This document shows positions 2,074 through 27,088 of a DNA stretch of 64,000 nucleotides, one piece after another. Position 1 is the stretch's first letter; every line of letters starts with the position of its first letter. The position numbers and the translations under genes are program-made. The notes beneath the pieces were generated by a model. The model had not been told where the DNA came from. It worked only from the letters and a program-made list of their open reading frames with translations, and did no database searches. Source of the stretch: Pimelobacter simplex (GTDB lineage Bacteria; Actinomycetota; Actinomycetes; Propionibacteriales; Nocardioidaceae); contig JADCLI010000020.1 of assembly GCA_016803235.1 (NCBI GenBank), forward strand, positions 33,281 through 97,280. Direction: 5' to 3'.

Positions 2074-2091
2074 GAGAACGTGTTCTAATAT
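2074..2091 (+). promoter_or_regulatory. KstR box plus -10 of the mce4-like operon
   Basis: GAGAACGTGTTCTA (2074-2087) matches the KstR consensus TnnAACnnGTTnnA except at the first base. It merges into TAATAT (2086-2091), a very good -10. A start near 2098 leaves a leader of about 50 nt before yrbE4A, with GGAGAGGAG at 2130-2138 as ribosome-binding site. Bound repressor would cover the -10. Confidence 0.75.
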
Positions 2092-2146
2092 CGCCGGGTC
2101 CCGGGAGCGGGACCGGCGGGAACATCGTGGGGAGAGGAGTCGGGGC

Positions 2147-2920
2147 GTGGCCTTCAATGCCATGGCGGTCGTGCGTGGCCCTGGCGAGATCGCACTGATG
2201 GTCGTCGAGGTCACCAAGCGGATCTTCACCCGGCCCTTCCAGTTCCGGGAGTTCCTCGAGCAGGCCTGGTTCGTCACCAGCGTGACGCTGATGCCGACGA
2301 TCATGGTCTCGATCCCGTTCGGCGCGGTCATCTCGCTCCAAGTCGGCAACCTCACCGGCCAGCTCGGTGCCCAGTCCTTCGCCGGCGCGACCGCTGTGCT
2401 GGCCACCGTGCGCGAGGCGGCACCGATGGCGGCCGCCATGATCATCGCCGGTGCCGCCGGCTCGGCGATCTGCTCCGACCTCGGCGCCCGCAAGATCCGC
2501 GAGGAGATCGATGCCATGGAGGTCCTCGGCATCGACCCGCTCGAGCGCCTGGTGGCCCCCCGCGTCGTCGCGACCATGTTCGTCGCCTTCATGATCAACG
2601 GCATCGTGATCGGCACCGGCATCGGCGGAGGCTACTTCTTCACCGTGATCGTCCAGGGTGGGTCGGCGGGCGCGTTCCTGTCGTCGTTCACCGCCCTCGC
2701 CTCGCTGCCGGACCTCTACATCGCGATGATCAAGGCGATCATCTTCGGCTGGCTCGCCGCGATCATCGGCGCCTACAAGGGCCTCAACGCGGGCGGCGGG
2801 CCGAGCGGCGTGGGCCGGGCGGTCAACGAGTCGGTGATCATCGCCTTCATGGCGCTGTTCTTCCTCAACGCCGTGATCACCGCGATCTACTTCCAGGTCG
2901 CTCCGCCGGTGGGGTTGTGA
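2147..2920 (+). CDS. yrbE4A: YrbE4A-like MlaE-family permease of Mce importer
   Basis: A 257-residue polytopic membrane protein of the MlaE/YrbE family, one of the two permease subunits of an Mce lipid importer. It shows the family's EEIDAMEVLGIDPLERLVAPR coupling-helix region and the GxxGGGPSGVGRAVN region near the C-terminus. The GTG at 2147 was chosen because GGAGAGGAG sits 8 nt upstream and homology begins there; an in-frame extension to 1991 would run through the promoter. It overlaps yrbE4B at GTGA. A KstR-type box upstream and downstream sterol genes point to an Mce4 (sterol) role, which is inferred. The MlaF-type ATPase is not encoded here. Confidence 0.9.
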   Translation: MAFNAMAVVRGPGEIALMVVEVTKRIFTRPFQFREFLEQAWFVTSVTLMPTIMVSIPFGAVISLQVGNLTGQLGAQSFAGATAVLATVREAAPMAAAMIIAGAAGSAICSDLGARKIREEIDAMEVLGIDPLERLVAPRVVATMFVAFMINGIVIGTGIGGGYFFTVIVQGGSAGAFLSSFTALASLPDLYIAMIKAIIFGWLAAIIGAYKGLNAGGGPSGVGRAVNESVIIAFMALFFLNAVITAIYFQVAPPVGL

Positions 2921-3759
2921 TGGCTGCCGCCGGAGAGTTCCTCGCCAACAGCTACAAGAGCGGTCGCTCCTCCCTCGAGGGGTACGGCGACCAGCTGCTC
3001 TTCTACGTCAAGGCGCTCGCCTGGGCGCCGCGCGCGATCAGGCGCTACCCGCGCGAGATCCTGAACACCCTCGCCGAGGTCGCCTTCGGCGCGGGCGGGC
3101 TGAGCCTGATCCTGGGCTCGGTCGGCGTGATCGCGTTCATGGCGTTCTTCGCCGGCACCGAGGTCGGCATCCAGGGCTACGCCTCGCTGAGCCAGATCGG
3201 CGTCGCGAAGTTCAGCGCGTTCATCTCCGCCTACTTCAACACCCGCGAGGTCGCCCCCCTGGTGTCCGCGATCGCGCTGGCCGCGACGGTGGGCTGCGGC
3301 TACACCGCGCGCCTGGGTGCGATGCGGATCTCGGAGGAGATCGACGCCCTCGAGGTGATGGGCATCCCGTCGCTGCCGTTCCTCGTCACGACCCGGATGA
3401 TCGCCGCCTTCGTCGCGGTCATCCCGCTCTACATCGTCGCGCTGTGTGCGTCGTACCTCTCCCCGCGGCTGATCGTCACCATGATCTACGGGCAGTCCGG
3501 CGGCACCTACGACCACTACTTCCTGCAGTTCCTGCCGCCGATCGACATGATCTGGTCGTTCTTCAAGCTGCTCTTCCTCGCCGTCGCGGTGATCCTCATC
3601 CACTGCTACTACGGCTACACCGCCTCGGGCGGGCCCGCCGGCGTCGGCCGCGCGGTCGGCAAGGCGATCCGCACCAGCATCGTGACCATCGTGATGGCCG
3701 ACTTCTTCCTGACCTTCGCCATCTGGGGATCCACGACGACCGTCCGGATCACGGGGTGA
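2917..3759 (+). CDS. yrbE4B: YrbE4B-like MlaE-family permease of Mce importer
   Basis: The second MlaE-family permease, 280 residues from GTG 2917; an ATG directly follows at 2920 and could be the start instead. The EEIDALEVMGIPSLPFLVTTR motif and the GGPAGVGRAVGKAIRTS motif mirror those of the first permease. The two would form the membrane heterodimer beneath the Mce protein tube. The start codon overlaps the stop of yrbE4A, so translation is probably coupled. The next gene follows 7 bp downstream. Confidence 0.9.
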   Translation: MMAAAGEFLANSYKSGRSSLEGYGDQLLFYVKALAWAPRAIRRYPREILNTLAEVAFGAGGLSLILGSVGVIAFMAFFAGTEVGIQGYASLSQIGVAKFSAFISAYFNTREVAPLVSAIALAATVGCGYTARLGAMRISEEIDALEVMGIPSLPFLVTTRMIAAFVAVIPLYIVALCASYLSPRLIVTMIYGQSGGTYDHYFLQFLPPIDMIWSFFKLLFLAVAVILIHCYYGYTASGGPAGVGRAVGKAIRTSIVTIVMADFFLTFAIWGSTTTVRITG

Positions 3760-3766
3760 GCCGGCC

Positions 3767-5080
3767 ATGCTGATCAACATCCACCACGACAGTGCCAGGG
3801 AGCACAACCGTCTCCTCGTCGCCGGCGTCGTGTTCCTGTCCACGATCGCGCTGCTGGTGTGGCTCTCGATCGCGATCTACAACAAGACCTTCGACAGCTC
3901 GACGGTCGTGACGGTCAAGGCGGACCGGGCCGGCCTCCAGCTGGCCAAGTTCGGCGACGTGCGGATCAACGGCGTCCTGGTCGGCCGGGTCGACCAGATC
4001 GACCAGGACGGCGAGCAGGCCGAGATCACCCTCGCCCTCGACAACGACGCCGCGAAGAAGATCCCCGCCAACGTGAACGTGCGGATCCTGCCGACGACCC
4101 TGTTCGGCCAGAAGTTCGTCGCGCTGGTCCGGCCGGAGGCCGCGAGCGGCCACCTCCAGGACGGCGACGTGATCCCCTCGGACCGGGTGGAGACCAATGT
4201 CGAGCTGAGCCAGGTGCTCGCCGACCTCTTCCCCCTCCTGCGTGCGGTGCGCCCCGCCGACCTCAACGCCACGCTCCACGCCCTGGCCACCGCGCTCGAG
4301 GGGCGCGGCGACCAGCTCGGCGCGACGATGGACCAGCTCGGCGACTACATCGGCGCGATCGACGACCACCTGCCGACCCTGCGCCAGGACCTGGTCGCGC
4401 TGGCCGACGTCGCCGACGCCTACGACGTCGCCGCGCCCGACCTGCTCGACGTGCTCGACAACGTCACGGTCACCAGCAAGACCGTCACCGAGAAGGCCGA
4501 GGACCTCGACGTCTTCTTCTCCGACCTCACCGGCCTGTCCGACACCGCGACCAAGTTCCTCGCCGACAACGAGCAGAACCTGATCCGGATGGGCCAGGTC
4601 ACCGCACCGGTGCTCGACCTGCTGGCGGAGTACTCCCCGGAGTTCCCCTGCCTGATCCGTGGCGCCGCCAACTACGCACCGATCCTGTCCAAGACGTTCG
4701 AGGGCAACGTGGTGAAGCAGTACATCGAGTTCTTCCAGCCGCAGTTCCGGGCCTACGACGAGCGCGACCTGCCCTCCTACGGCGAGGTCGGCCACGGTCC
4801 CTGGTGCCTGGGTCTGCCGGACTTCACCGTCCCGGCGCCCGCCCACCCACTCGACCAGGGCTCCGACATCGACGAGAAGGGCGGCTTCTCGCCGCTGCCG
4901 CTGCAGGGCCTGCTGGGCCGACCCGCCGCCATCGACAGCGGGTACGCCGGCAGCGTGGCCGAGCAGCGCGTCGTCAACGCGATGCTCGCCGGCGAGAGCG
5001 GCAGTGACCCGGCCGCGTACGGCGCGCTCGGCACGCTGCTCTACGGCCCGGTCGTCCGCGAAGGGAGGGCAGCCGGATGA
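3767..5080 (+). CDS. mce4A: Mce4A-like MCE/MlaD substrate-binding protein
   Basis: A 437-residue MCE-family protein. A single N-terminal membrane anchor (about residues 16-37) is followed by an MlaD beta-barrel domain (about 40-125, with FGDVRINGVLVGRVDQI and PTTLFGQKFV), then a long helical region and a proline-rich C-terminal part. MCE proteins assemble into a hexameric channel that passes hydrophobic substrate from the outer envelope to the YrbE permeases. It is first of six mce genes in the usual A-F order and ends by a 4-bp overlap with the next (ATGA at 5077). Confidence 0.9.
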   Translation: MLINIHHDSAREHNRLLVAGVVFLSTIALLVWLSIAIYNKTFDSSTVVTVKADRAGLQLAKFGDVRINGVLVGRVDQIDQDGEQAEITLALDNDAAKKIPANVNVRILPTTLFGQKFVALVRPEAASGHLQDGDVIPSDRVETNVELSQVLADLFPLLRAVRPADLNATLHALATALEGRGDQLGATMDQLGDYIGAIDDHLPTLRQDLVALADVADAYDVAAPDLLDVLDNVTVTSKTVTEKAEDLDVFFSDLTGLSDTATKFLADNEQNLIRMGQVTAPVLDLLAEYSPEFPCLIRGAANYAPILSKTFEGNVVKQYIEFFQPQFRAYDERDLPSYGEVGHGPWCLGLPDFTVPAPAHPLDQGSDIDEKGGFSPLPLQGLLGRPAAIDSGYAGSVAEQRVVNAMLAGESGSDPAAYGALGTLLYGPVVREGRAAG

Positions 5081-6168
5081 ACCCCGGGGGCAACCAGCGC
5101 AACGCGGCGACCAGGTCCGCGGCGATCAAGCTCGCGGTCTTCACGATGGTGTCGGTGTTCGTGACCGGTCTGCTGGCCGTGATCATGGGCAACGTCGGCT
5201 TCGGCGACCGCAACGAGTACCACGCGATCTTCACCAACGCCACGATGCTGGGGAAGGGCGACGACGTCCGGGTCGCCGGCGTCAACGTCGGCGAGGTGAA
5301 GAAGGTCGAGCACTACCGCCGCACGATGGCCAAGGTGACCTTCAAGGTCGACGCCGGCGTGAAGATGACCTCCGCCTCCAGGGCCGAGATCCGGTTCCTC
5401 AACCTGGTCGGGGACCGCTACATGGCCCTCGAGCAGGGCACCGGCGCCGCCGAGGCGAAGGCACTGGCCGACGGCGCGACCATCCCGGAGGACAGGACCA
5501 AGCCGGCGCTCGACCTCACCGTGCTCTTCGACGGCTTCAAGCCGCTGTTCGCCGCGCTCACCCCGGACCAGGTCAACGAGCTGAGCATGAACCTGGTCCA
5601 GGTGCTCCAGGGCGAGGGCGGCACGGTGAAGAGCCTGCTCGACCACACCGCGTCGCTGACCTCGACCCTCGCCGACCGCGACCAGCTGATCGGTGACGTG
5701 ATCACCAACCTGACCCAGACGCTGAAGACGGTCGACGACCGGCACCAGCAGCTGAGCTCGCTCATCGTGTCGCTCAAGGACTGGATGACCGACCTCGCCG
5801 AGGACCGCGACACCATCGGCTCCTCCCTCGACAACATCTCCGAGCTGACCGTCGCGGTCGCCGACCTGCTGCGCCGCGGCCGGCCGCTGCTCAAGGAGGA
5901 CATCGCCGCCCTGCGCGAGCTCTCCGCGCTGCTCAACAAGAAGGAGAACCGGGACAACCTGGCCAGCCTCCTCAACCGGATGCCGGAGATGATGACCGAC
6001 CAGACCCGCACCGGCACCTACGGCTCCTGGTACCAGTACTACGTCTGCGGCGTCTCGGCCCGCATCCGGCTCCCCATCATCAAGGACCTGCCGATCCTCA
6101 AGGAGCTGCAGGACTACATCACCAACTTCTCCTTCAAGTCCAAGGCGCCGAGGTGTCAGGACCGATGA
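5077..6168 (+). CDS. mce4B: Mce4B-like MCE/MlaD protein
   Basis: A 363-residue MCE-family protein with an N-terminal anchor (about 17-38), an MlaD domain (VRVAGVNVGEVKKVEHYRR; EIRFLNLVGDRYMALEQG) and a helical part containing repeated short heptad-like stretches (LTSTLADRDQLIGDVITNL, LVVSLKDWM-type). It is the second subunit of the heterohexameric Mce tube. AAGGGAGG at 5061-5068 is a clear ribosome-binding site. ATGA overlaps link it to both neighbours. Confidence 0.9.
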   Translation: MNPGGNQRNAATRSAAIKLAVFTMVSVFVTGLLAVIMGNVGFGDRNEYHAIFTNATMLGKGDDVRVAGVNVGEVKKVEHYRRTMAKVTFKVDAGVKMTSASRAEIRFLNLVGDRYMALEQGTGAAEAKALADGATIPEDRTKPALDLTVLFDGFKPLFAALTPDQVNELSMNLVQVLQGEGGTVKSLLDHTASLTSTLADRDQLIGDVITNLTQTLKTVDDRHQQLSSLIVSLKDWMTDLAEDRDTIGSSLDNISELTVAVADLLRRGRPLLKEDIAALRELSALLNKKENRDNLASLLNRMPEMMTDQTRTGTYGSWYQYYVCGVSARIRLPIIKDLPILKELQDYITNFSFKSKAPRCQDR

Positions 6169-7154
6169 ACAAGCACCAGCGCGCACGCGACGCCCGCGTC
6201 CTGCGGCTCGGCGTCATCACGCTCGTCGTGATGGCCGTCGTCTCGGCGGCGACCTTCAACCTCGGCAAGTTCCCGGGCTTCCGCGGCACGACCTACTACG
6301 CCGAGTTCAGCGACGCCAGCGGCATCCACAAGGGCAACATCGTCCAGGTCGGTGGCATCCGCGTCGGCCGGGTCGCCGCGGTCGACCTCGCCGGCGACCG
6401 GGTCAAGGTGAAGTTCGAGATCGACGGCGACGTCGACTTCGGCAAGGAGAGCAGCGCCTCGATCGAGGTCCTCAACCTGCTCGGCGAGAAGTTCCTCGAC
6501 CTCCAGCCCGGTGGCAAGGGCCAGCTCGCCGAGGGCGGCACCATCCCGATGGAGCGCACCCAGGCGGCGTACGACATCGTCGGCGTCTTCGGCGACCTCA
6601 CCACGACGACGGAGGAGATCGACACCCAGCAGCTCGCCCAGGCGCTGGACACGGTGGCCGACACCCTCGACCAGTCGGCACCCGAGATCCAGGCCTCCTT
6701 CGACGGCATCTCCCGGCTCTCGAAGACCATCGCGTCGCGCGACGAGGAGATCCAGACGCTCTTCGACAGCTCGAAGGAGGTCACGAAGGTCCTCGCCGAC
6801 CGCAGCGACGACATCGTCGAGCTGATGAAGAACAGCGACCTGGTGTTCCAGGAGCTGACCAAGCGCAAGGAGGCCGTGCACGCGCTGCTCCTCAACGCTC
6901 GCTCCCTGGCCAAGGAGCTGCGCGGCGTGGTCAAGGACAACGAGCAGCAGATCGGCCCGGCTCTCGCGGAGGTCGACGGCCTGGTGTCCTTCCTGGTCTC
7001 CAAGAAGGACAAGCTCAAGGCGACCCTCGCCGCGCTCGGCCCCTACGTGTCCATCCTCAGCAACATCATCGGCACCGGGCCGTGGTTCGACGCGTACGCC
7101 GCGAACGTCCTCGCGATCCCGACCGGCGAGTTCGTCCCCGGAACGGGGCTCTGA
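6165..7154 (+). CDS. mce4C: Mce4C-like MCE/MlaD protein
   Basis: A 329-residue MCE-family protein with an N-terminal anchor, then an MlaD domain (GNIVQVGGIRVGRVAAVDL; SIEVLNLLGEKFLDLQPGG), then helices with spaced IASRDEEI and LADRSDDI repeats. The start is set at ATG 6165, overlapping the stop of mce4B in ATGA; a GTG at 6153 would add four residues only. It ends 5 bp before mce4D. Confidence 0.9.
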   Translation: MNKHQRARDARVLRLGVITLVVMAVVSAATFNLGKFPGFRGTTYYAEFSDASGIHKGNIVQVGGIRVGRVAAVDLAGDRVKVKFEIDGDVDFGKESSASIEVLNLLGEKFLDLQPGGKGQLAEGGTIPMERTQAAYDIVGVFGDLTTTTEEIDTQQLAQALDTVADTLDQSAPEIQASFDGISRLSKTIASRDEEIQTLFDSSKEVTKVLADRSDDIVELMKNSDLVFQELTKRKEAVHALLLNARSLAKELRGVVKDNEQQIGPALAEVDGLVSFLVSKKDKLKATLAALGPYVSILSNIIGTGPWFDAYAANVLAIPTGEFVPGTGL

Positions 7155-7159
7155 TCGCC

Positions 7160-8389
7160 GTGGTGTCCACCGTCCTCAAGCGCATCGACCGGCGCGTGAT
7201 CGCGCTCGTCGCGGTCGCGCTCGTGCTCGCCGTGACCGTCAACCTGGTCCGCTCGCCGGCCGAGATGAAGACCGTGACCGCCCACTTCCCGCGCGCCGTC
7301 AGCGTCTACGAGGGCACCGACGTGCGGATCCTCGGCGTCAACGTCGGCAAGGTGACCGCCGTGATCCCGGAGGGCAACTCGGTGCGGGTCGAGATGGAGT
7401 ACGACGCGTCGTACCAGGTCCCGGCGAAGGCGCAGGCCGTGATCGTCACCCCCACGCTGGTCGCCGACCGCTTCGTCCAGCTCACCCCCGTCTTCCGGGG
7501 TGGCGACGTGCTGGCCGACGGCGCCGACATCGCGCTGCCGGAGACCGCCGTGCCGGTCGAGCTGGACCGGATCTACGGCAGCCTGCAGGCGCTGACCCGG
7601 GCGCTCGGTCCCAACGGGGTCAACGCCGACGGCACCCTCGACCACCTGCTCGCGGCCGGCACCAAGGCCTTCAGCGGACAGGGCGCGACGGGCAACCAGA
7701 TGATCCAGGACCTCGCCGACGCGGCCCAGACCTTCGGCGACGGCGCCGGGCCGCTGTTCGAGTCGGTCACCCAGCTCGCGAAGTTCACCACCACGCTCGC
7801 GGAGAACGACACACTGGTGCGGGCCTTCATGCAGGACCTGACCGGCGTCTCGGCGATGCTCGCCGAGGAGAGCGACGAGCTGCAGCAGGCCGTCGCCGCC
7901 GTGGCGAAGGCGGTCGGCAGCGTCAAGGGCTTCGTCAAGAACAACCGCGACGCCTTCGTCGCCGACATCGAGAAGCTCACCGAGGTGATGAGCACCATCG
8001 CCTCGGAGAAGGAGAACATCCAGACCGCCGTCGAGGTGGCGCCGGTCGCGATGGGCAACCTGGCGATGGGCTTCGACCACGTCAGCGGAAGCCAGAACTC
8101 CCGCTTCGCCATCGGCGGCAACGTCTGGGACGCCGACGGCTTCATCTGCGGCCTGATCCAGCAGCACCCGGCGATGCCGCCGGCCCTCAAGGACACCGCG
8201 TGCGAGCTCATCGAGAAGCTGATCGAGCCGATCGTGACCAAGCTCCCGTGGCTGCCGCCCGGCTACAAGCAGTACCTGCCCAAGCAGGCCGCCTCGAAGA
8301 AGGGCATCCAGGTGCCGGAGTTCTCCGACGTGTCCTACTCGACCGGCGACGGCGCCTCCGTCCAGAGCCTGCTGGGAGGTGGCTCATGA
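7160..8389 (+). CDS. mce4D: Mce4D-like MCE/MlaD protein
   Basis: A 409-residue MCE-family protein with an N-terminal anchor (RRVIALVAVALVLAVTVNLV) and an MlaD domain (YEGTDVRILGVNVGKVTAVIPEG; TPTLVADRFVQLTP). Its C-terminal tail carries two separated cysteines (FICGLIQQ, TACELIEK) and a KLPWLPPGYKQYL segment typical of MceD. The start is one of two adjacent GTG codons (7160 or 7163); neither has a strong ribosome-binding site, so coupling from mce4C is likely. Confidence 0.88.
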   Translation: MVSTVLKRIDRRVIALVAVALVLAVTVNLVRSPAEMKTVTAHFPRAVSVYEGTDVRILGVNVGKVTAVIPEGNSVRVEMEYDASYQVPAKAQAVIVTPTLVADRFVQLTPVFRGGDVLADGADIALPETAVPVELDRIYGSLQALTRALGPNGVNADGTLDHLLAAGTKAFSGQGATGNQMIQDLADAAQTFGDGAGPLFESVTQLAKFTTTLAENDTLVRAFMQDLTGVSAMLAEESDELQQAVAAVAKAVGSVKGFVKNNRDAFVADIEKLTEVMSTIASEKENIQTAVEVAPVAMGNLAMGFDHVSGSQNSRFAIGGNVWDADGFICGLIQQHPAMPPALKDTACELIEKLIEPIVTKLPWLPPGYKQYLPKQAASKKGIQVPEFSDVSYSTGDGASVQSLLGGGS

Positions 8390-9759
8390 GCACGACCCGC
8401 ACCCCGGCCGGGTCCGTCCTCCGGCGCCGCTGGCGCGCCCTGGTCGCCTTGCTGCTCGGCACGGCGCTGCTCACCGGCTGCAGCAGCTTCGACGGCGCCT
8501 ACGACCTGCCGCTGCCCGGTCACCCGGTCGACGCCGACGAGGCGTTCGAGGTCACGGCGTACTTCCACGACGTGCTCAACGTGGTCCCGCGCTCGCCGGT
8601 GATGGTCGACGACGTCGTCGTCGGCGAGGTGACCGAGGTCGAGCGGTCCGGCTGGAACGCCAAGGTCACCCTCCGGCTGCGCGAGGACGTGAAGCTGCCC
8701 GACAACTCGATCGCCGACATCCGCCAGGTCTCGCTGCTGGGCGAGAAGTACGTCTCGCTGCAGGCGCCCCAGCAGGAGGCGCCGGCGGGACGGCTCGGCC
8801 AGGGCGACGAGATCGCGCTCGCCAAGACCGGCCGCAACCCGGAGGTCGAGGAGGTGCTGGGCGCGTTGTCCTTCCTGCTCAGCGGCGGTGGCGTCGCCCA
8901 GCTCGGCACCATCACCAAGGAGGCCAACCTGGTGATGTCCGGGCGCGAGGACCGGCTGCGCAGCCTGCTGTCGTCGCTGGACTCGGTGGTCGGGACCATC
9001 GACCAGCAGAAGCTCGACATCATCGCGGCGCTCGAGTCGCTCAACAACCTGACCTCGACGCTCAACGCCGAGAAGAAGACGATCGGCGACGCCCTCGACG
9101 CCGTCGGGCCTGCGGTGGAGGTCCTGTCCGCCCAGCACGACGAGCTGATCGCGATGCTCGGCTCCCTCGACCAGCTCGGCAAGGTCGGCACCCGCGTGAT
9201 CAACGCCAGCAAGGAGGACGTGCTCAAGATCCTCGAGGACCTCAGCCCGATCCTGCGGCGGCTCACCGAGGCCGACGAGCAGCTGGCACCCGGCCTCAAC
9301 CTGCTGGTGAGCTTCCCGTTCCCGCAGGCGGCCAACAACATCGTCCAGGGCGACTACGCGGACACGATCATCCGTGCCGACCTCAACCTCGAGAACCTCT
9401 ACAAGACGCTGGGCCTGCCCGAGATCGAGCTGCCCGACCTGGGCGAGGTCCTCGACTCGGTGACCAAGTGCCTCAAGAGCGGCAGCCTCACCAGCGTGTC
9501 CTGCCTCAAGGTCCTCAGCGACGTCAACCTGCTCCAGGACCTGCAGAACAAGTGCAAGGACCCCACGATCAGCGGCAGCCCGGTCTGCAAGCTGCTGACG
9601 TCGCTGCCCAACCTCGACCTGGGTGGGCTGCTCGGCGGAGCCAACGGGCTGCTCGGGCCCGACGGCCTGCTCGGCGGGCTGGTCAAGGGACTGACCGGCG
9701 CCCAGCGATCGTCGTACCAGACCTCGACGGAGAGCCTGCTGGGCGGGGGACTGGCATGA
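8386..9759 (+). CDS. mce4E: Mce4E-like MCE lipoprotein
   Basis: A 457-residue MCE protein that is a lipoprotein. An arginine-rich N-terminus and hydrophobic stretch lead to the lipobox LLTGC with the lipidated cysteine at residue 32. The E subunit is the lipoprotein (LprN-type) in mce operons, so position five of six fits. The MlaD domain follows (VMVDDVVVGEVTEVERSGW; QVSLLGEKYVSLQAP). The C-terminus has paired cysteines (SCLKVL, NKCKDP, PVCKLL) and a Gly/Leu-rich tail. ATGA overlaps join it to both neighbours. Confidence 0.9.
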   Translation: MSTTRTPAGSVLRRRWRALVALLLGTALLTGCSSFDGAYDLPLPGHPVDADEAFEVTAYFHDVLNVVPRSPVMVDDVVVGEVTEVERSGWNAKVTLRLREDVKLPDNSIADIRQVSLLGEKYVSLQAPQQEAPAGRLGQGDEIALAKTGRNPEVEEVLGALSFLLSGGGVAQLGTITKEANLVMSGREDRLRSLLSSLDSVVGTIDQQKLDIIAALESLNNLTSTLNAEKKTIGDALDAVGPAVEVLSAQHDELIAMLGSLDQLGKVGTRVINASKEDVLKILEDLSPILRRLTEADEQLAPGLNLLVSFPFPQAANNIVQGDYADTIIRADLNLENLYKTLGLPEIELPDLGEVLDSVTKCLKSGSLTSVSCLKVLSDVNLLQDLQNKCKDPTISGSPVCKLLTSLPNLDLGGLLGGANGLLGPDGLLGGLVKGLTGAQRSSYQTSTESLLGGGLA

Positions 9760-11614: not shown

Positions 11615-11636
11615 CGCTGCGCAGGACGAGGAACAG

Positions 11637-12560: not shown

Positions 12561-12573
12561 AACACGTTACAGT
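12558..12573 (+). promoter_or_regulatory. KstR box and -10 of the reductase-fdxD-hsd4A operon
   Basis: TAGAACACGTTACA (12558-12571) is a full match to TnnAACnnGTTnnA. It overlaps TACAGT (12568-12573), a TAnnnT -10 box. The GTG of the next gene begins 6 nt after that box, so the transcript is probably leaderless. The box starts in the stop codon of the preceding gene. Confidence 0.8.
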
Positions 12574-13581: not shown

Positions 13582-13588
13582 GACCCGC

Positions 13589-14056: not shown

Positions 14057-14069
14057 GAGGGATGAACCG

Positions 14070-15187: not shown

Positions 15188-15189
15188 GC

Positions 15190-16664: not shown

Positions 16665-16685
16665 TGGAACACGTTCCACTACGTT
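16665..16685. promoter_or_regulatory. KstR box between kstR and the glycosyltransferase operon
   Basis: TGGAACACGTTCCA (16665-16678) is a perfect 14-bp palindrome fitting TnnAACnnGTTnnA. On the plus strand TACGTT (16680-16685) follows as a possible -10, giving a leader of about 40 nt before 16735. The box also lies upstream of kstR on the minus strand, so it can serve both directions. Confidence 0.8.
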
Positions 16686-16734
16686 TTTGTTTCGGTCCAG
16701 CTCCCCGGGAGCTCGAAAAGGGGAGATGTACCTG

Positions 16735-18034: not shown

Positions 18035-18784
18035 ATGCTGACCGTTGACTTCGACCGCCTGGGCCTGCAGGCCGGCGACCGCGTCCTCGACATGGGCGCC
18101 GGTGCCGGCCGCCACAGCTTCGAGATGTACCGGCGCGGCGCCGACGTGATCGCGTTCGACCTCGACGCCGAGGAGCTCGAGAACGTCCGCAACCTCTTCG
18201 TCGCGATGAGGGAGGCCGGCGAGGTGCCCGAGGGTGCCGAGGCCGACGTCAAGCAGGGCGACGCGCTCGCGCTGCCCTTCGCCGACGGGGAGTTCGACCG
18301 GATCGTGTGCTCCGAGGTGCTCGAGCACATCCACGACGACGTCGCGGCGATCCGGGAGCTGATCCGGGTGCTGCGTCCCGGCGGCACCCTCGCGGTCACC
18401 GTGCCCCGGTGGCTGCCCGAGGTCATCAACTGGCGCCTCTCGGCCGACTACCACAACGCCGAGGGCGGTCACATCCGCATCTACACCGACCACGAGCTCG
18501 TCGACAAGGTCACCAAGGGCGGCCGCTCCAACGACGGCACCCCGGGCGACGCGATGCTCTTCGAGGGCAAGAGCTACACGCACGGCCTGCACGCGCCGTA
18601 CTGGTGGATCAAGTGCGCCGTCGGTGTCGAGAACGACGACCACCCCCTCGCCAGGGCGTACCACAAGCTGCTGGTCTGGGAGATCATGAAGCAGCCCAAG
18701 GCGCTCCAGCTCGCCGGCAAGGTGCTCGACCCGATGATCGGCAAGAGCATGGTGCTGTACTTCCGGAAGCCCGACGCAGCGTGA
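18035..18784 (+). CDS. Class I SAM-dependent methyltransferase
   Basis: A 249-residue Rossmann methyltransferase. Motif I is VLDMGAGAGRHSFE, followed by an acidic VIAFDLD and the DRIVCSEVLEHI and LRPGGTLAVTVPRW motifs of the UbiE/Methyltransf_11 group. It starts 4 bp after the glycosyltransferase and overlaps the next gene by 4 bp (GTGA), so the three are surely co-translated. Substrate unknown; it may methylate the product of its neighbours. Confidence 0.82.
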   Translation: MLTVDFDRLGLQAGDRVLDMGAGAGRHSFEMYRRGADVIAFDLDAEELENVRNLFVAMREAGEVPEGAEADVKQGDALALPFADGEFDRIVCSEVLEHIHDDVAAIRELIRVLRPGGTLAVTVPRWLPEVINWRLSADYHNAEGGHIRIYTDHELVDKVTKGGRSNDGTPGDAMLFEGKSYTHGLHAPYWWIKCAVGVENDDHPLARAYHKLLVWEIMKQPKALQLAGKVLDPMIGKSMVLYFRKPDAA

Positions 18785-19923
18785 CCCGGGACACCACGCC
18801 GGAGGTGCCGCTGAGCCGCCTGCCGTACGTCGACGGCGTGCTCTCGGCCCAGCAGATCGCCGACACCGCGGCGGCGATCGCGGCGATGCAGGAGCCCTGG
18901 GGTGCCGTGCCGTGGACCACCGGCGAGCACGTCGACATCTGGAACCACGTCGAGGCCGCCATGGCGATGCTCGTCGGCGGCCAGATCGAGGCCGCGGAGC
19001 GCGCCTACGCCTGGATCCCCACGATGCAGCGCGACGACGGCTCGTGGCCGATGAAGATCGTGGGCGGCGTCGCCGACGACGAGCGCGGCGAGGTCAACAT
19101 GTCGGCGTACTTCGCCGTGGGCCTGTGGCACCACTGGCTGGTGCGCCGCGACATCCGCTTCGTCGAGCGCTACTGGCCCTCGGTCCGCGCCGGGCTCGAC
19201 TTCGTGGTCTCCCTCCAGGACACGTTCGGCGGCATCCGCTGGACGCCCGAGGACGACTTCTGCCTGCTCACCGGCAGCTCCTCGATCTACCACTCGCTGC
19301 GCGCCGGGGTGGCGCTGGCCGACCTCATGGACGACCCGCAGCCCGAGTGGGAGCTCGCGGGTGGTCGCCTCGGCCACGCCGTGCGCACCCACCCCGACCG
19401 GTTCGCCGACAAGTCGACCTACTCGATGGACTGGTACTACCCGGTCCTCGGTGGCGCCGTGCGCGGCGACGCGGCCCGCGAGCTGCTCGCCCGCCGCTGG
19501 GACGACTTCGTGGTTCCCGGTCTCGGCATCCACTGCGTCGACACCAACCCCTGGGTGACCGGCGCCGAGACCTGTGAGCTGGCGATGGCCCTCGACGTCC
19601 TCGGCGACTCCGACTCCAGCAAGCGTGCCCTCGCCCTGCTCGCCGACATGCAGCACCTGCGCGAGGACGACGGCCGCTACTGGACCGGCTGGGTGTACGC
19701 CGACCCGACCCGCCCGGCGCCGGCCGACGAGCCGCGCGACGTGCACTGGCCGCACGAGCACACGACCTACACCGCCGCCGCGGTGGTGCTCGCAGTCGAC
19801 GCGCTGGGGGAGACCTACGGCCACGCGACCCCGGGCTCGGGGATCATGCGCGGCACGTCGCTGGCTCCGCACTTCGACGAGATCGCCCTCGAGTGCGACT
19901 GCTCGGCGGCCTCGGTTCGCTGA
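18781..19923 (+). CDS. Prenyltransferase/squalene-cyclase-like alpha/alpha-toroid protein
   Basis: A 380-residue soluble protein with repeated Trp/Gly motifs typical of the terpenoid-cyclase alpha/alpha toroid: QRDDGSWPMKIVGG, QDTFGGIRWTPEDDF, YWTGWVYADP. Automatic annotation often calls such proteins prenyltransferases. The DxDD of class II cyclases is not evident, so catalysis is doubtful; a glycan- or lipid-trimming hydrolase with the same fold is another option. It is coupled to the upstream methyltransferase (GTGA) and ends the three-gene unit. Confidence 0.65.
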   Translation: MTRDTTPEVPLSRLPYVDGVLSAQQIADTAAAIAAMQEPWGAVPWTTGEHVDIWNHVEAAMAMLVGGQIEAAERAYAWIPTMQRDDGSWPMKIVGGVADDERGEVNMSAYFAVGLWHHWLVRRDIRFVERYWPSVRAGLDFVVSLQDTFGGIRWTPEDDFCLLTGSSSIYHSLRAGVALADLMDDPQPEWELAGGRLGHAVRTHPDRFADKSTYSMDWYYPVLGGAVRGDAARELLARRWDDFVVPGLGIHCVDTNPWVTGAETCELAMALDVLGDSDSSKRALALLADMQHLREDDGRYWTGWVYADPTRPAPADEPRDVHWPHEHTTYTAAAVVLAVDALGETYGHATPGSGIMRGTSLAPHFDEIALECDCSAASVR

Positions 19924-20026: not shown

Positions 20027-20701
20027 TCACAGAGCGTCGCCCGCTGACCCCTTCGTGCGCTGCAGGACCCGCAGGGAGCCGGTGACGGCGACCTCCGTGT
20101 ACTGTCCGCTCGCCAGCGCGGGCAGGTAGATCTGCTCGTACGGCGGCCGCCCGCCGTCCGCAGGGTCGGGGAAGACGTCGTGGATGGCGAGGTAGCCGCT
20201 CGCCTCCACCCAGTGCGCCCAGCCCGCGTAGTCCGCGCGGGCCGGCTCCACGCCGTGCCCGCCGTCGATGAACAGCAGCGAGAGCGGCGTGCGCCAGTGG
20301 GTGGCCACGGTCGTCGACTGGCCGACGACCGCGATGACGTGGTCCTCGAGGCCGGCGCGGGCGATGTTCTTGCGGAACTGGCCCAGGGTGTCCATCAGCC
20401 CGAGCTCGGGATCGACGACGCTGGCGTCGTGGTGCTCCCAGCCGGCCTGGTTCTCCTCGGAGCCGCGGTGGTGGTCGACGGTGAACACGACGGCCGTCGT
20501 ACCGGTCTCCCGGGTGACCTGCTGCGCGGCCGCGCCGAGGTAGATCCCGGACTTGCCGCAGTACGTGCCGACCTCGAGTGCGGGCCCGTGGGGGAGCCGC
20601 TCGAGCGCGATCCGGTGCAGCAGCGCGCCCTCGTCCTCGGGCATGAAGCCCTTCGCGGCACGGGCGAGGTCCAGCAGGTCGGACGGCATGGTGTCGGTCA
20701 C
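20027..20701 (-). CDS. Class I SAM methyltransferase (Methyltransf_24 type)
   Basis: A 224-residue Rossmann methyltransferase: ALEVGTYCGKSGIYLGAAA is motif I, and LLFIDGGHGVEPARADYAGW is the Methyltransf_24 acidic motif, as in cephalosporin-hydroxylase/O-methyltransferase-like enzymes. GTG 20701 has a TAnnnT box (TAGAGT, 20713-20708) ending 6 nt upstream, so the message is probably leaderless. It diverges from the ChsE3-like gene across a perfect KstR box and points toward the glycosyltransferase-methyltransferase unit. Substrate unknown. Confidence 0.75.
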   Translation of the reverse strand: MTDTMPSDLLDLARAAKGFMPEDEGALLHRIALERLPHGPALEVGTYCGKSGIYLGAAAQQVTRETGTTAVVFTVDHHRGSEENQAGWEHHDASVVDPELGLMDTLGQFRKNIARAGLEDHVIAVVGQSTTVATHWRTPLSLLFIDGGHGVEPARADYAGWAHWVEASGYLAIHDVFPDPADGGRPPYEQIYLPALASGQYTEVAVTGSLRVLQRTKGSAGDAL

Positions 20702-20720: not shown

Positions 20721-20738
20721 TAGAACGCGTTCTAGTTT
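20721..20738. promoter_or_regulatory. KstR box between methyltransferase and chsE3-like gene
   Basis: TAGAACGCGTTCTA (20721-20734) is a perfect 14-bp palindrome. TAGTTT (20733-20738) can act as -10 for the plus-strand gene. On the minus strand the -10 of the methyltransferase (20713-20708) is 7 bp from the box, so both promoters could be blocked by one bound repressor. Confidence 0.8.
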
Positions 20739-20792: not shown

Positions 20793-22784
20793 ATGTCGAT
20801 CGGCATCACCGACGAGCAGGTCGAGCTCGCCGACAGCCTGCGCAAGTGGGCCGCGAGCCTGGCCCCGCTCGAGGCGGTCCGTGCCGCGGAGGGAGACGCG
20901 GCCGCCGACTTCGCCGCGATCTGGGCCGCGATCGAGGAGATGGGCGTCCACGCCATCGCCGTGCCCGAGGCCGACGGCGGTGGCGGGGGGACCGTGCTCG
21001 ACCAGGCGGTCGCGCTGGAGGCCTGCGCCCACGAGCTGCTGCCGGGCGGACTGCTCGGCGCCGCGATCGGCAGCGCCCTGACCGGGGCGCCGGGCCGGTA
21101 CGGTGTCCAGCTCGAGGACGACGGCGTCGTCTGGGACGGCGGTACGGCGGGCCGCGGCACGCCCGAGCCCGGCATCGACCTCTCGGCGCGGCACGCCCGC
21201 GGCACCGGTCCCGGGCTCGCCGACCCCGCCGCGCGGCGTACGGCGATCACGTTCGCGGCCGCCGAGGCCGCCGGCGTGACCCGCTGGTGCCTGGAGACCG
21301 CGGTCGACTACGCCAAGGTCCGCGAGCAGTTCGGCCAGAGGATCGGCGCCTTCCAGGCGATCAAGCACCTGTGTGCCCAGATGCTCGAGACCGCCGAGGC
21401 CGTCACCGCGGCGGCATGGGACGCGGCCGCGGCCGCGAACGGGGCCGACGAGGAGCAGTGGACCTTCGCGGTCGACATCGCGCACGTCACGTGCTTCGAC
21501 GGCGCCGTCGAGGTCGCCAAGGCCTGCATCCAGGTCCTCGGCGGCATCGGCTTCACCTTCGAGCACGACGCCCACCTCTACCTGCGCCGCGCGCTCACCC
21601 TGCGCGCCCTCGTCGGCTCCGCCGACGCCGCGGCGGAGCGGGTGACCGCTGCTGCCGTGACCGGCGTACGACGCCGGGTCGACGTCGACCTCGGGGGCCG
21701 TGACGAGGCGATCCGTCCCGAGGCCCGGGCCACCGCGGAGCGGATCGCGGCGCTGCCGGCGGCGGACCAGCGCGCCGCCCTGGTCGACGCGGGCTACCTG
21801 ACGCCGCACTGGCCCGCGCCCTACGGGCTCGGCGCCGACCCGACCACGCAGATCGTCATCGACCAGGAGCTCGGCCGCGCGGGCGTCGTACGACCGGACC
21901 TGGTGATCGCCGGCTGGGCGGTCCCGACGATCCTCGCCCACGGCACCGACGCGCAGCGCGAGCGGTTCGTGCGCCCCTCGCTGCTCGGTGAGCTCACCTG
22001 GTGCCAGCTGTTCTCCGAGCCCGGCTCCGGCTCCGACCTCGCCTCGCTGCGCACCCGCGCCGTGAAGGTCGATGGCGGCTGGTCGCTGAGCGGGCAGAAG
22101 GTGTGGACCTCGGTCGCCGAGCGCGCCGACTGGGGCATCTGCCTGGCCCGCACCGACGCCGACGTCCCGCAGCACAAGGGCATCACGTACTTCCTCGTCG
22201 ACATGCGCACGGCCGGCATCGAGGTCCGCCCGCTGCGCGAGATCACCGGTGAGGCGCTGTTCAACGAGGTCTTCCTCGACGACGTGTTCGTCCCCGACGA
22301 GTGCGTCGTCGCCGAGCCCGGCGACGGGTGGAGGCTGGCCCGCACGACGCTCGCCAACGAACGGGTCGCCATGGCCAGCGCCCGGCTCACCAAGAGCGTC
22401 GAGCGTGCCGTCGAGCTCGCCGCCTCCCGCGACCTCGGTCCCGTCGAGCGCGTCGAGGTCGGCCGCCAGGTCGCGCTCGCGACCGTGTGCGCCCTCCTCG
22501 GCGTGCGCACCACGCTGCGCGCCCTCGGTGGCCACGGACCCGGCGCCGAGTCGAGCGTCGCCAAGCTGCTCGGCGTCCGCAGCCGCCAGGACTCCTCGGA
22601 GCTCGTGGTCAGGCTCCAGGGCGACGAACTGGCGCTGCTCGGTGCGATCGGCAAGGAGTCCGGCGACCCGCTCGCCGCCGACGTCTGGGAGCAGCTCAAC
22701 ACCCGCTGTCTGTCCATCGCCGGTGGTACGACGCAGATCCTGCGCAACGTCGCCGGAGAGCGGATCCTCGGCCTGCCGCGCTAG
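20793..22784 (+). CDS. chsE3: Two-domain acyl-CoA dehydrogenase, ChsE3/FadE34-like
   Basis: A 663-residue protein made of two acyl-CoA dehydrogenase units. The first (about 1-300) has a shortened middle part and DYAKVREQFGQRIGAFQAIKH and LGGIGFTFEHDAHLYLRR. The second (about 310-663) has CQLFSEPGSGSDLASLRTRA, GQKVWTSVAERADW and a terminal IAGGTTQILRNVAGERILGLPR. Steroid-type FadE enzymes pair two unlike halves; FadE34 (ChsE3) of M. tuberculosis carries both in one chain, lies beside kstR and oxidises the five-carbon side-chain intermediate. Size, KstR box and nearness to kstR fit. ATG 20793 follows AAGGAG. The exact substrate is inferred. Confidence 0.6.
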   Translation: MSIGITDEQVELADSLRKWAASLAPLEAVRAAEGDAAADFAAIWAAIEEMGVHAIAVPEADGGGGGTVLDQAVALEACAHELLPGGLLGAAIGSALTGAPGRYGVQLEDDGVVWDGGTAGRGTPEPGIDLSARHARGTGPGLADPAARRTAITFAAAEAAGVTRWCLETAVDYAKVREQFGQRIGAFQAIKHLCAQMLETAEAVTAAAWDAAAAANGADEEQWTFAVDIAHVTCFDGAVEVAKACIQVLGGIGFTFEHDAHLYLRRALTLRALVGSADAAAERVTAAAVTGVRRRVDVDLGGRDEAIRPEARATAERIAALPAADQRAALVDAGYLTPHWPAPYGLGADPTTQIVIDQELGRAGVVRPDLVIAGWAVPTILAHGTDAQRERFVRPSLLGELTWCQLFSEPGSGSDLASLRTRAVKVDGGWSLSGQKVWTSVAERADWGICLARTDADVPQHKGITYFLVDMRTAGIEVRPLREITGEALFNEVFLDDVFVPDECVVAEPGDGWRLARTTLANERVAMASARLTKSVERAVELAASRDLGPVERVEVGRQVALATVCALLGVRTTLRALGGHGPGAESSVAKLLGVRSRQDSSELVVRLQGDELALLGAIGKESGDPLAADVWEQLNTRCLSIAGGTTQILRNVAGERILGLPR

Positions 22785-24604: not shown

Positions 24605-24622
24605 TGGTACCCGTTCTAGTTT
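24605..24622. promoter_or_regulatory. Imperfect KstR box between lipase and WS/DGAT genes
   Basis: TGGTACCCGTTCTA (24605-24618) fits TnnAACnnGTTnnA except for T in place of the first A of AAC. TAGTTT (24617-24622) is a candidate -10 for the plus-strand gene, placing a start near 24629, just before ATG 24640. Confidence 0.55.
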
Positions 24623-24639: not shown

Positions 24640-26070
24640 ATGGATCGGCTGTCGGGACTGGATGCGAGCTTCCTCTACCTGGAGACGCCCGCCCAGCTGA
24701 TGCACGTGTGCGCGGTGATGGTGCTCGACCCGGCAACGATGACGACGCCCTACGCGTTCGCCGCGATGCAGCGCGAGATCGAGGTGCGGGTGCGCGACGT
24801 GCCCGGGTTCACCCGCAAGGTGCGCGGCGTCCCGCTCGGCCTCGACCATCCCGTGTGGGTGCGCGACAAGAACTTCGACATCGAGCGCCACGTGCACCGC
24901 CTCGCGCTGCCGACGCCCGGTGGGTACGCCGAGCTGATGGACCTGTGCGCCCACCTCGCGTCGCTGCCGCTCGACCGCTCGCGGCCGCTGTGGGAGATGT
25001 GGGTCATCGAGGGCTATCGGCCCACGGGCCCAGACGGCGAGCTCGCGGACGAGAAGGTCGTCGTGTTCGCCAAGATGCACCACGCGACGGTCGACGGCGT
25101 CTCCGGATCCAACCTGATCTCGCACCTGTGCTCGCTGGAGCCCGACGCGCCGCCCGTGATCGGTGAGAACGCACCGCACCCGCGCGACCCGGGCCGGGGC
25201 GAGCTGCTCGGCCGCGCCGTCATCGGTACGGCGACCCGCCCGGTCACCCTGGTCAAGGTGCTCAAGCCCTCGGCGCAGCTGGTCACCAAGAGCATCGGAC
25301 GCGCCCGGCAGGGCACCGCCATGGCCGCGCCGTTCTCCGCGCCGCGCACCTCCTTCAACGGCACCATCACCTCGCACCGCTCGATCGCGATGGCCGACCT
25401 CGACCTCGAGGAGATCCGCCGGATCAAGAAGGTCACCGGGACGACGGTCAACGACGTCGTGCTCGCCGTGTCCGGCGGGGCGCTGCGGGCCTACCTCGCC
25501 GAGCGCGACGAGCTGCCCGAGACCTCACTGCTGGCCACGGTGCCGGTCAGCGTGCGTGACAGCTCGCGCCGTTCGACAGGCGCCAACAAGGTCTCCGCGC
25601 TGTTCACCAAGCTCGGCACCGACATCGACGACCCCCTGGCGCGGCTGGCGATGCTCGCCGAGCGCAACCAGTACGCCAAGGAGCACCACAACGCGATCAG
25701 TGCCGATGCGCTGCAGGACTGGGCCGAGTTCGCCGCCCCCCGGACCTTCGGTCTCGCCGTGCGTGCCTACGCCAACCTCCGCCTCGCCGAGAAGCACCCG
25801 GTCGTGCACAACCTGGTCATCTCCAACGTGCCGGGCCCGCCGATCCCGCTCTACTTCATGGGGGCGCGGATCGAGGCGCTCTGCCCGCTCGGACCGGTGT
25901 TCCACGGTGCCGGTCTCAATGTCACGGTCATGTCGAACGCGGGACAGATGCACGTCGGCGCGATCGCCTGCCGCGAGTCGATGCCCGACACCGACGCGCT
26001 CGTGCGCCACTTCCCGGCCGAGCTGGCCCGGCTCGGTGCGGCGGTCGACGGGACCCCGTCGCCGGCGTGA
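24640..26070 (+). CDS. WS/DGAT wax ester synthase / diacylglycerol acyltransferase
   Basis: A 476-residue acyltransferase of the bacterial WS/DGAT family. The active-site HHxxxDG is HHATVDG at about 147-153. The N-terminal LSGLDASFLYLETP and C-terminal NLVISNVPGPPIPLYFMGA are typical. It joins acyl-CoA to a fatty alcohol or diacylglycerol to make storage lipid. ATG 24640 gives the normal N-terminus; a GTG at 24625 would add five residues but overlaps the expected transcription start. Its link to the KstR-like box suggests that acyl-CoA from sterols can be stored, which is inference. Confidence 0.88.
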   Translation: MDRLSGLDASFLYLETPAQLMHVCAVMVLDPATMTTPYAFAAMQREIEVRVRDVPGFTRKVRGVPLGLDHPVWVRDKNFDIERHVHRLALPTPGGYAELMDLCAHLASLPLDRSRPLWEMWVIEGYRPTGPDGELADEKVVVFAKMHHATVDGVSGSNLISHLCSLEPDAPPVIGENAPHPRDPGRGELLGRAVIGTATRPVTLVKVLKPSAQLVTKSIGRARQGTAMAAPFSAPRTSFNGTITSHRSIAMADLDLEEIRRIKKVTGTTVNDVVLAVSGGALRAYLAERDELPETSLLATVPVSVRDSSRRSTGANKVSALFTKLGTDIDDPLARLAMLAERNQYAKEHHNAISADALQDWAEFAAPRTFGLAVRAYANLRLAEKHPVVHNLVISNVPGPPIPLYFMGARIEALCPLGPVFHGAGLNVTVMSNAGQMHVGAIACRESMPDTDALVRHFPAELARLGAAVDGTPSPA

Positions 26071-26077
26071 GGTGGTG

Positions 26078-26095
26078 CGGTTTGGTCCCAAACCG
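26078..26095. terminator. Stem-loop between convergent WS/DGAT and hydrolase genes
   Basis: CGGTTTG, a GTCC loop, and CAAACCG form a perfect 7-bp stem just after the WS/DGAT stop. A second weaker stem GCAGAG...CTCTGC lies at 26110-26129. Between converging genes these can terminate both transcripts. Confidence 0.55.
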
Positions 26096-26152
26096 TGTGC
26101 GACACGCCGGCAGAGCATGTGGTCTCTGCCCGATCCCGGTGTCGGCGGGCTC

Positions 26153-27061
26153 TCAGCGCCGGAAGTCCCGACGCCGCGCGTTGACGGTCGCGGCCGCCTC
26201 GACGAAGCGCGGGACGAATCTCTCGGCGCCCAGCACGCAGCCCGCGTGCCCGTCGTCGACCTCGTGCACCGTCGCGCCGGGGATCGCCCGCGCCAGCGCC
26301 AGCTGACGCTGGGTCGGGATCACCCGGTCGCGCATCATCGCGACCACCGCCGTCGGGACGTCGATCCGCGAGAGCCAGGGCCGCGAGTGGTGCTGCCCGA
26401 GGGCGGCCAGCGCCTGCCCGACCGCCCACGGGCTGGTGGAGCGGAACTCGCGCAGCGCCCACTCGTGCAGGTCGGAGACCTCGAGGTCGACCCCGCGCGC
26501 GGCGGCCCGGGCCGCCCGTACCGCCGTACGGGACCGTGACACACCGCGCAACGCGACCATCGTGGAGCCCATGCCGAGGAAGAAGCCGCGCTCGGCGGGC
26601 GTGAGCTGGAAGCGGTCGGTGGTGGCGCCGAGCACCAGGCCCTGCACCAGCGAGGGGTGCTGGCGCCACACCCGCTGCGCGACGATCGAGCCCATCGAGT
26701 AGCCGGCCACGATGACGTCCTCGAGCTCCAGCGCGTCGATCAGCGCGGCGACGTCGTCGGCGCAGTCGACGAGGCTGAACTCCTCGCTCTGGATGCCGCG
26801 CCCGTGCCAGCGCTGGTCGAGCGTCACCACCCGGAAGCGCTGCGACAGCGGCTCGATCGCAGGGAACCAGGTCAGCAGCCCGGTCGTGCCGAGCGCGTGC
26901 AGCAGCACGATCGTCGGCGACGCCGGGTGCGGCCCCGGGGTGTCGGTGACGTACGTCGACCCGCCGCGTCCCGGGAGCTCGACCATCCGTCCCCTCGGGA
27001 TCCGCGTCGGCGGCAGCTCCACCCGGCGGCGCGCGACGTCGATCAGTGAGACGGCTCCCAT
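26153..27061 (-). CDS. Alpha/beta hydrolase
   Basis: A 302-residue alpha/beta-fold hydrolase: oxyanion HALGTTG, nucleophile GYSMGS, a DRVIP loop with the likely acid, and catalytic His in DDGHAG. It resembles the 3-oxoadipate enol-lactonase/esterase group. ATG 27061 lies 7 nt after TAGTCT (27074-27069), indicating leaderless transcription, and homology begins there. It shares one KstR box with the divergent chsE1-chsE2 gene, so a role in steroid catabolism such as thioester or ester hydrolysis is likely but unproven. Confidence 0.75.
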   Translation of the reverse strand: MGAVSLIDVARRRVELPPTRIPRGRMVELPGRGGSTYVTDTPGPHPASPTIVLLHALGTTGLLTWFPAIEPLSQRFRVVTLDQRWHGRGIQSEEFSLVDCADDVAALIDALELEDVIVAGYSMGSIVAQRVWRQHPSLVQGLVLGATTDRFQLTPAERGFFLGMGSTMVALRGVSRSRTAVRAARAAARGVDLEVSDLHEWALREFRSTSPWAVGQALAALGQHHSRPWLSRIDVPTAVVAMMRDRVIPTQRQLALARAIPGATVHEVDDGHAGCVLGAERFVPRFVEAAATVNARRRDFRR

Positions 27062-27068
27062 GCGCGCA

Positions 27069-27088
27069 AGACTAGAACACGTTACAGT
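27069..27088. promoter_or_regulatory. Bidirectional leaderless promoter around one KstR box
   Basis: TAGAACACGTTACA (27073-27086) is a full KstR-consensus match, identical to the box at 12558. On the plus strand TACAGT (27083-27088) ends 6 nt before GTG 27095. On the minus strand TAGTCT (27074-27069) ends 7 nt before ATG 27061. One operator therefore sits between and overlaps both -10 boxes in a 33-bp divergent spacer. Confidence 0.8.

Follow-up and report, generated by a model that had tools for sequence, protein, structure and literature searches.

The closest described systems come from two literatures. In Mycobacterium, the TetR-family repressor KstR acts on lipid and sterol targets through the motif TnnAACnnGTTnnA, which overlaps the -10 region, and one intergenic box is common to kstR and its neighbor fadE34 (Kendall et al. 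2007, PMC1995591). A regulon of this kind has also been published for Nocardioides simplex VKM Ac-2033D, for which KstR sites were predicted in 71 operons genome-wide (PMC7807495, PMC7593942), and 12 genes of its cluster B (KR76_12190-12345) were induced by phytosterol (PMC7807495). Separately, nontuberculous mycobacteria carry a four-gene cluster (manT, pmeT3, mmpH and meT1) for methylmannose polysaccharide (MMP), an intracellular polymer of 11-14 3-O-methylmannoses that is proposed to sequester fatty-acyl-CoA (Maranha et al. 2023, PMC9883506). Here, we describe a 64,000-nucleotide stretch of Pimelobacter simplex DNA (hereafter, the window; contig JADCLI010000020.1, positions 33,281 to 97,280, our G000:C12:33281-97280, from a 5.36 Mb genome in 82 contigs) in which a KstR sterol locus with six KstR boxes encloses an MMP gene cluster.

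The core of the locus is a known kind of regulon, already published for N. simplex, whose cluster B has mce genes, hsd4A, a short-chain dehydrogenase/reductase (SDR) gene, kstR, fadE34 and the igr operon in the same order (PMC7807495, PMC7593942). It shares with the mycobacterial regulon the box motif and its overlap with the -10 region, the repressor family, the kstR-fadE34 neighborhood and the lipid and sterol targets, so that most of the finding corresponds to what those published accounts describe (PMC7807495, PMC1995591). In Mycobacterium, however, kstR and fadE34 have a single box in common (PMC1995591), whereas in the window these two genes flank the MMP cluster, which has a box on either side. 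What appears to be new, judging from sequence comparisons, is that a KstR box precedes the MMP cluster, and that its presence and absence go with those of KstR. We consider it likely that the boxes are KstR operators, through which MMP synthesis is repressed along with sterol catabolism. In the literature searched, no paper was found that joins methylmannose with KstR, or polymethylated polysaccharides with acyl-CoA and sterol. The features of the locus are as follows.

2074..2087, no strand: KstR box 1, GAGAACGTGTTCTA, before the mce4-type import operon (motif search, relatives).
2147..12560, + strand: mce4-type operon of ten genes, namely two MlaE/YrbE permeases, six mce and two accessory genes; of the five that were scanned, two gave MlaE, one Mce4_CUP1 together with MlaD, one MlaD alone and one no match, and the remaining five were placed by order and length.
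12558..12571, no strand: KstR box 2, TAGAACACGTTACA (motif search, relatives).
12604..15957, + strand: redox and dehydrogenase genes for an FAD reductase, a PNPOx-like protein, a ferredoxin and two SDRs, one hsd4A-like and a second (domain scans; the hsd4A name is taken from the position in the N. simplex locus).
15973..16584, - strand: KstR, TetR-family repressor of 203 amino acids (NF033703, 265.6 bits, E 1.8e-79; Mycobacterium tuberculosis KstR 5cw8, E 2.3e-56).
16665..16678, no strand: KstR box 3, TGGAACACGTTCCA, common to the divergent kstR and manT (motif search, relatives, shuffles).
16726..18030 (the start may be 16735), + strand: manT, GT4 alpha-(1->4)-mannosyltransferase of MMP (PDB 7qsg, 460 bits).
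18035..18784, + strand: pmeT3, putative 3-O-methyltransferase of MMP (gene order; generic methyltransferase matches only).
18781..19923, + strand: mmpH, MMP endomannosidase (PDB 7qsj).
20027..20701, - strand: meT1, 1-O-methyltransferase of MMP (PDB 6g7d, 247.5 bits; Methyltransf_24).
20721..20734, no strand: KstR box 4, TAGAACGCGTTCTA, common to the divergent meT1 and fadE34 (motif search, relatives).
20793..22784, + strand: fadE34 (chsE3)-like two-domain acyl-CoA dehydrogenase (acyl-CoA dehydrogenase families; named for its place near kstR, as described for mycobacteria and N. simplex in PMC1995591 and PMC7807495).
23313..24572, - strand: BD-FAE-type alpha/beta hydrolase, an esterase (domain scan).
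24605..24618, no strand: KstR box 5, TGGTACCCGTTCTA, common to the esterase and the wax ester/triacylglycerol synthase (WS/DGAT) gene (motif search, relatives).
24640..26070, + strand: WS/DGAT (TIGR02946, 484 bits, cut-off 310).
26153..26986, - strand: alpha/beta hydrolase adjoining chsE (scan).
27073..27086, no strand: KstR box 6, TAGAACACGTTACA, before the igr-type operon (motif search, relatives).
27095..31755, + strand: igr-type side-chain operon with a fused acyl-CoA dehydrogenase, a 175-amino-acid gene without a Pfam match, a ChsH2-like gene, a MaoC-like gene and a thiolase (Ltp2-like).

The initial annotation tied sterol import, redox partners, storage-lipid enzymes and side-chain removal into one control unit, together with a sugar/methyl modification unit that it left unidentified. 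The single sterol control unit is supported by the identity of KstR and by conserved and genome-wide boxes (both below), and the sugar/methyl unit is, on its homologies and gene order, the MMP cluster manT-meT3-mmpH/meT1. Orthologues of ManT, MmpH and MeT1 occur together in the window. ManT matched PDB 7qsg (E 8.3e-137) and MeT1 matched PDB 6g7d (E 1.1e-72), entries labelled D-inositol 3-phosphate glycosyltransferase and simply "Methyltransferase domain protein", respectively; neither label names MMP, and we take these structures to be those of ManT and MeT1. MmpH matched PDB 7qsj, which is labelled Methylmannose polysaccharide hydrolase, with 384 bits alone and 495 bits as a 19-sequence profile. 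The putative MeT3 has the right place and size and only generic methyltransferase matches, and finds 53-60% matches at the same place in mycobacterial clusters where that gene was called. The structure of ManT is described in PMC9883506. The cluster resembles the nontuberculous mycobacterial one in its four genes, of which pmeT3 is putative, and in retaining the mycobacterial MmpH catalytic residues Asp47 and Glu262 (D52 and E263 in the window), which are invariant in 19/19 Nocardioides rows; the third residue, Asp50, one of two candidates for the catalytic acid, is Asn55 in all 19. This pattern favors Asp47 as the acid left open in PMC9883506. The two differ in that Nocardioides with KstR have the cluster under a KstR box, and type I fatty acid synthase (FAS-I) was not found there; neither Nocardioides, cholesterol nor KstR is mentioned in the text of PMC9883506. 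MmpH was found in 37/37 genomes of the genus (taken here as Nocardioides), with or without KstR, and MMP therefore seems to be one of its core traits and not part of a sterol gene set.

A motif search of the window recovered all six boxes where the initial annotation had placed them, with its split into four exact copies (12558, 16665, 20721 and 27073) and two copies with 1 mismatch (2074 and 24605). At ≤1 mismatch, 10 matches occur in the window against 1.74 expected, a number reached in 0/100 shuffles; the remaining four lie at 4688, 30144, 52335 and 56462. The boxes had also been described as lying in promoter positions, and each does precede a gene in our models: box 2074 is 59 bp before yrbE4A; box 12558 is 32 bp before the FAD reductase gene, with the final three bases of the open reading frame ahead of it falling inside the box; boxes 16665, 20721 and 24605 lie between kstR and manT, meT1 and fadE34, and the esterase and WS/DGAT genes, respectively; and box 27073 is 8 bp before chsE. 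The overlap with a TAnnnT -10 element held as well, although for more boxes than the five initially counted: a + strand TAnnnT overlaps all six (16665 by one base only) compared with 12% of intergenic 14-mers, a comparison in which the palindrome's own end favors such matches. Across the genome, the exact motif occurs in 49 places versus 7 for the pattern read backwards as a reversed control. Most of these (41/49) fall outside gene models, which make up 95% of the window as coding sequence, and 39 of the 41 are ≤150 bp from a start.

The identity of the repressor, which the initial annotation had placed mid-locus, is supported by its sequence. The window KstR matches the NF033703 profile, at a score just under the curated cut-off (see below), and, with phmmer, the crystallized M. 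tuberculosis KstR (5cw8), the DNA-binding part being nearly identical; within that part, VALGTLYRYFPSK is invariant in 45/45 aligned KstR rows. It is by far the best KstR match in its genome, the next two scoring 109 bits (C41:14322) and 102 bits (C1:133898). Within a few kb of the latter is a further gene of the KshA type (L043:3461-4618), which lacks a good box (best score 8 on the scale given below). Box 16665 places the KstR operator in the promoter of kstR itself, with a score reached in 0/200 shuffles of the spacer.

KstR was found (E 1e-35) in 27/37 genomes of the genus, counting that of the window, whereas 21 genomes from other families of the order yielded none. For the 26 relatives with KstR, we compared the side of kstR towards fadE34, and for 19 of them also the side towards mce, scoring the best box per promoter by a simple ad hoc weight out of 14 in those relatives in which the gene was recognized. 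Boxes were conserved before fadE34 and chsE (≥12.5 in 23/23 and 17/17 relatives, respectively) and before yrbE4A (≥13 in 10/11, the single miss being at the edge of the fetched stretch). Before the FAD reductase gene, scores were ≥12 in 16/20, the misses being one cut edge and genomes G021, G026 and G028, and WS/DGAT scored ≥11 in 16/18 and ≥12.5 in 11/18. Genome-wide, TNGAACNNGTTCNA occurs 7-31 times in the 24 genomes with both KstR and HsaA, and 0-5 times in the 10 without KstR.

As box 16665 is common to kstR and manT, neighborhood alone proves nothing for manT. Indeed, kstR autoregulates in mycobacteria (PMC1995591), and kstR and manT are direct neighbors in 23/27 KstR genomes, so the box could serve autoregulation only, with manT a mere bystander on the other side. 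Genomes in which the two genes are apart make this unlikely. In three of them (G001, G011 and G015), whose unit is separate from kstR, manT nonetheless has a perfect TAGAACACGTTCTA 33-34 bp upstream; in Nocardioides luteus the same perfect box stands 37 bp before manT, with no kstR within its 17 kb locus (the extent of sequence covered); and in G027, where the unit is also away from kstR, the match before manT scores 12 of 14. Regulation of the MMP genes by KstR is also consistent with the distribution of the box in the genus: a manT box scoring ≥11 is present in 27/27 KstR genomes versus 1/9 without KstR (Fisher p 3e-7, uncorrected for kinship), the tenth KstR-less genome (G031) being left out since its contig begins at manT. 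Two further genomes were noted. L229, a metagenome-assembled genome from the Nocardioidaceae, has a 13.5-score box 59 bp before manT, and no KstR was found in its 2.6 Mb, possibly incomplete sequence. In L191 (Iso805N), a match of 12.0 precedes manT, KstR is encoded at another place, and HsaA matches do not exceed 39% identity; it is not one of the six genomes without HsaA discussed below.

Haloechinothrix (KstR 331 bits) also speaks against manT as a bystander, having the box TAGAACGTGTTATA 42 bp before a CYP125-like P450 gene that is followed on the same strand by a ferredoxin gene and, 81 bp further, by manT. In Streptosporangiaceae (L235, L242, L246, L253 and L255), manT and a divergent gene resembling GDP-mannose 4,6-dehydratase (401-412 bits, cut-off 415) have a box scoring 12.5-14 between them; this box is nearer to the divergent gene and so was not counted as evidence for manT. 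The KstR-like proteins of these genomes show only 34-39% identity (142-153 bits in the two scanned). In four of these loci (L242, L246, L253 and L255), the MMP cluster is also followed by a PNPOx gene, to which three of them add a called ferredoxin gene, and a KstR-like box scoring 12.5-13.5 stands in front; the P450 of L242 is CYP125-like. In L254, a perfect TAGAACGTGTTCTA precedes a P450 gene that runs into manT on the same strand, much as in Haloechinothrix.

Several results weigh against control of the MMP genes by KstR. Once kinship is taken into account, the tree offers just 4 independent pairs for the association of manT box and KstR. Of these, 3 agree with it and the other is a tie (p 0.25), so that the association is suggestive and not proof. 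Scores ≥11 also occur in 46/349 unassigned promoters of KstR genomes, some of which may be real targets, and in 7/134 of KstR-less genomes, and 7/41 kstR-manT spacers are matched in score by ≥6/200 shuffles. The mycobacterial loci, too, are at odds with it: manT has no box in 14/14 loci scored (best 10.5), where some manT starts may be wrong and the loci without a manT called above 50% identity (16 of the 80) were left unscored, and the M. smegmatis MMP locus tags that were looked for do not appear in the main text of PMC1995591. The window KstR itself falls 14 bits below the curated cut-off of 280 for NF033703 (next best family, 42 bits), and the KstR of N. ungokensis, 67% identical to it, lies above that cut-off (283.1 bits). 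Finally, meT1 reaches best scores of only 7.5-9 in the six genomes in which no recognized sterol gene adjoins it (G001, G011, G015, G021, G026 and G028), and is not supported as an independently conserved target. In G027, meT1 has a perfect box in common with yrbE4A.

If KstR does act on these boxes, then in the absence of sterol a KstR dimer would sit on each palindrome, overlapping the -10 region, and block transcription. Once sterol enters the cell, its oxidation would yield 3-oxo-cholestenoic acid or the corresponding CoA thioester, which is the reported effector in other actinobacteria, and KstR would release the DNA. The Mce4 importer, redox partners, dehydrogenases, FadE34, igr operon, WS/DGAT and esterase would then be derepressed, along with manT-meT3-mmpH (box 16665) and perhaps meT1 (box 20721). 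We infer that cells on sterol may make MMP so that bulky, hydrophobic acyl-CoA intermediates are held or buffered, and that they may use it to handle hydrophobic acyl-CoA while also storing carbon, WS/DGAT likewise being boxed. In vitro, MMP is described as binding medium- and long-chain acyl chains as well as acyl-CoAs, and in mycobacterial assays it regulates FAS-I (PMC2674218, PMC2581804). Its physiological role is called poorly defined in PMC2674218, and it has lately been tied to growth in the cold (PMC9883506). FAS-I is not named in PMC9883506. Searches with PF08354 found no FAS-I in 10/10 Nocardioides, two Streptosporangiaceae or Haloechinothrix, and did find it in both mycobacterial genomes, the Corynebacterium glutamicum control and one Nocardia; PF18314, which matched no control genome, was uninformative and was replaced by PF08354. 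Hence, the view that MMP modulates FAS-I cannot simply be transferred to Nocardioides. MMP genes under a sterol repressor where FAS-I was not found would point to acyl-CoA handling during sterol use, and would give a regulon otherwise associated with lipid catabolism a carbohydrate arm.

In some genomes, KstR was found without HsaA or CYP125. HsaA orthologues (≥78% identity) are present in 24/37 genomes of the genus, that is, all KstR genomes except G021, G026 and G028 (G028 has only a 33% match), and were found in none of the KstR-less ones. N. ungokensis, N. solisilvae and N. terrigena likewise have KstR with no HsaA at E 1e-60, in genomes of unstated completeness. CYP125 was not found at E 1e-60 in these six or in four KstR-less Nocardioides, compared with 4/4 HsaA-bearing Nocardioides in the same search. 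In all six, kstR and manT remain direct divergent neighbors, and the best box between them reaches ≥11 in five: G021 11, G026 12.5, G028 11.5, N. ungokensis 11, N. solisilvae 10 and N. terrigena 12. These scores were reached in 4, 0, 2, 4, 23 and 0 of 200 shuffles, respectively, and the N. solisilvae box is therefore no better than chance. The FAD reductase gene lacks such a box in G021, G026 and G028 (9.5, 8 and 8), and palindromes of the stricter form number 7, 2 and 3 in these genomes. On the tree, the occurrence of KstR in the absence of HsaA takes five changes. In its ligand part, KstR is down to 42-47% identity with the window protein in G026, G028 and N. solisilvae, compared with 50% in the HsaA-bearing G001. 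Slow decay of a relic KstR could underlie this pattern in the HsaA-less genomes. As a more tentative proposal, the tie of KstR to MMP may be firmer than that to sterol degradation, with at least six Nocardioides that have no detectable HsaA or CYP125 keeping a KstR devoted to MMP, and with MMP in actinobacteria lacking FAS-I acting not as a FAS-I modulator but to carry or buffer bulky acyl-CoAs, those of steroids included.

In N. simplex, the expected place of the MMP cluster (KR76_12275-12290) is not mentioned in the main text of PMC7807495 or PMC7593942. The authors count common divergent boxes for both sides, and their tables may therefore list the manT operon without naming MMP.

A scan of the whole P. 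simplex genome, proposed in the initial annotation, located boxes before kshA, kstD, hsaA, cyp125 and fadA5, and elsewhere before echA19 and two acyl-CoA ligase genes (ligases over the curated cut-off). Scores exceeded the curated cut-offs for FadA5 (680.8 bits, cut-off 515), EchA19 (432.6, cut-off 400), the 3-oxosteroid 1-dehydrogenase KstD (888, cut-off 788) and KshA (KshA_C, 277, cut-off 23), the last with an in-frame ATG 1 bp after its box (C6:59966). Among ten boxed genes compared with NCBIfam, CYP125 and an acyl-CoA dehydrogenase had no family at the threshold used; a boxed cholesterol-oxidase-like gene matched choline dehydrogenase models only, below cut-off, and a second set of ten boxed genes had general Pfam domains only. 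Box 5 is degenerate in this genome, as might be expected if the boxes and the KstR gene were remnants in a bacterium that has given up the use of sterol, but hsaA, cyp125, kstD, fadA5 and kshA all retain open frames and boxes, which makes such a history extremely improbable.

The central dinucleotides of the boxes form two subsets (AC/GT/GC and AG/CT/CA), and a TetR gene lies beside one box (C5:27761), so that several TetR repressors with common arms and different central dinucleotides might be involved. The box center, however, differs between species at one and the same promoter (GC, CT, AG and AC before fadE34, for example), and the two central bases therefore do not mark different regulators. 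Separate regulators for the central-dinucleotide classes were rejected on this ground, and we regard a division of the boxes among several repressors as very unlikely, KstR remaining the favored regulator. The box at C5:27761 (L062), TAGAACCAGTTCTA, stands between the TetR gene and an F420-dependent LLM oxidoreductase gene. At C2:32453 (L026:4454), a perfect TAGAACTTGTTCTA lies 32 bp before cofGH, whose bifunctional product makes FO for F420 (1438.7 bits, cut-off 1018), and F420 supply may be part of the sterol regulon, which includes a boxed F420-type LLM oxidoreductase. Lastly, two TTGAACnnGTTCAA palindromes, 43 bp apart at C8:66166 and 66209 (L031), lie between an adenosine deaminase gene and a gene of 136 amino acids, near a TetR-family match at C8:66703, and are probably the operator of another TetR.

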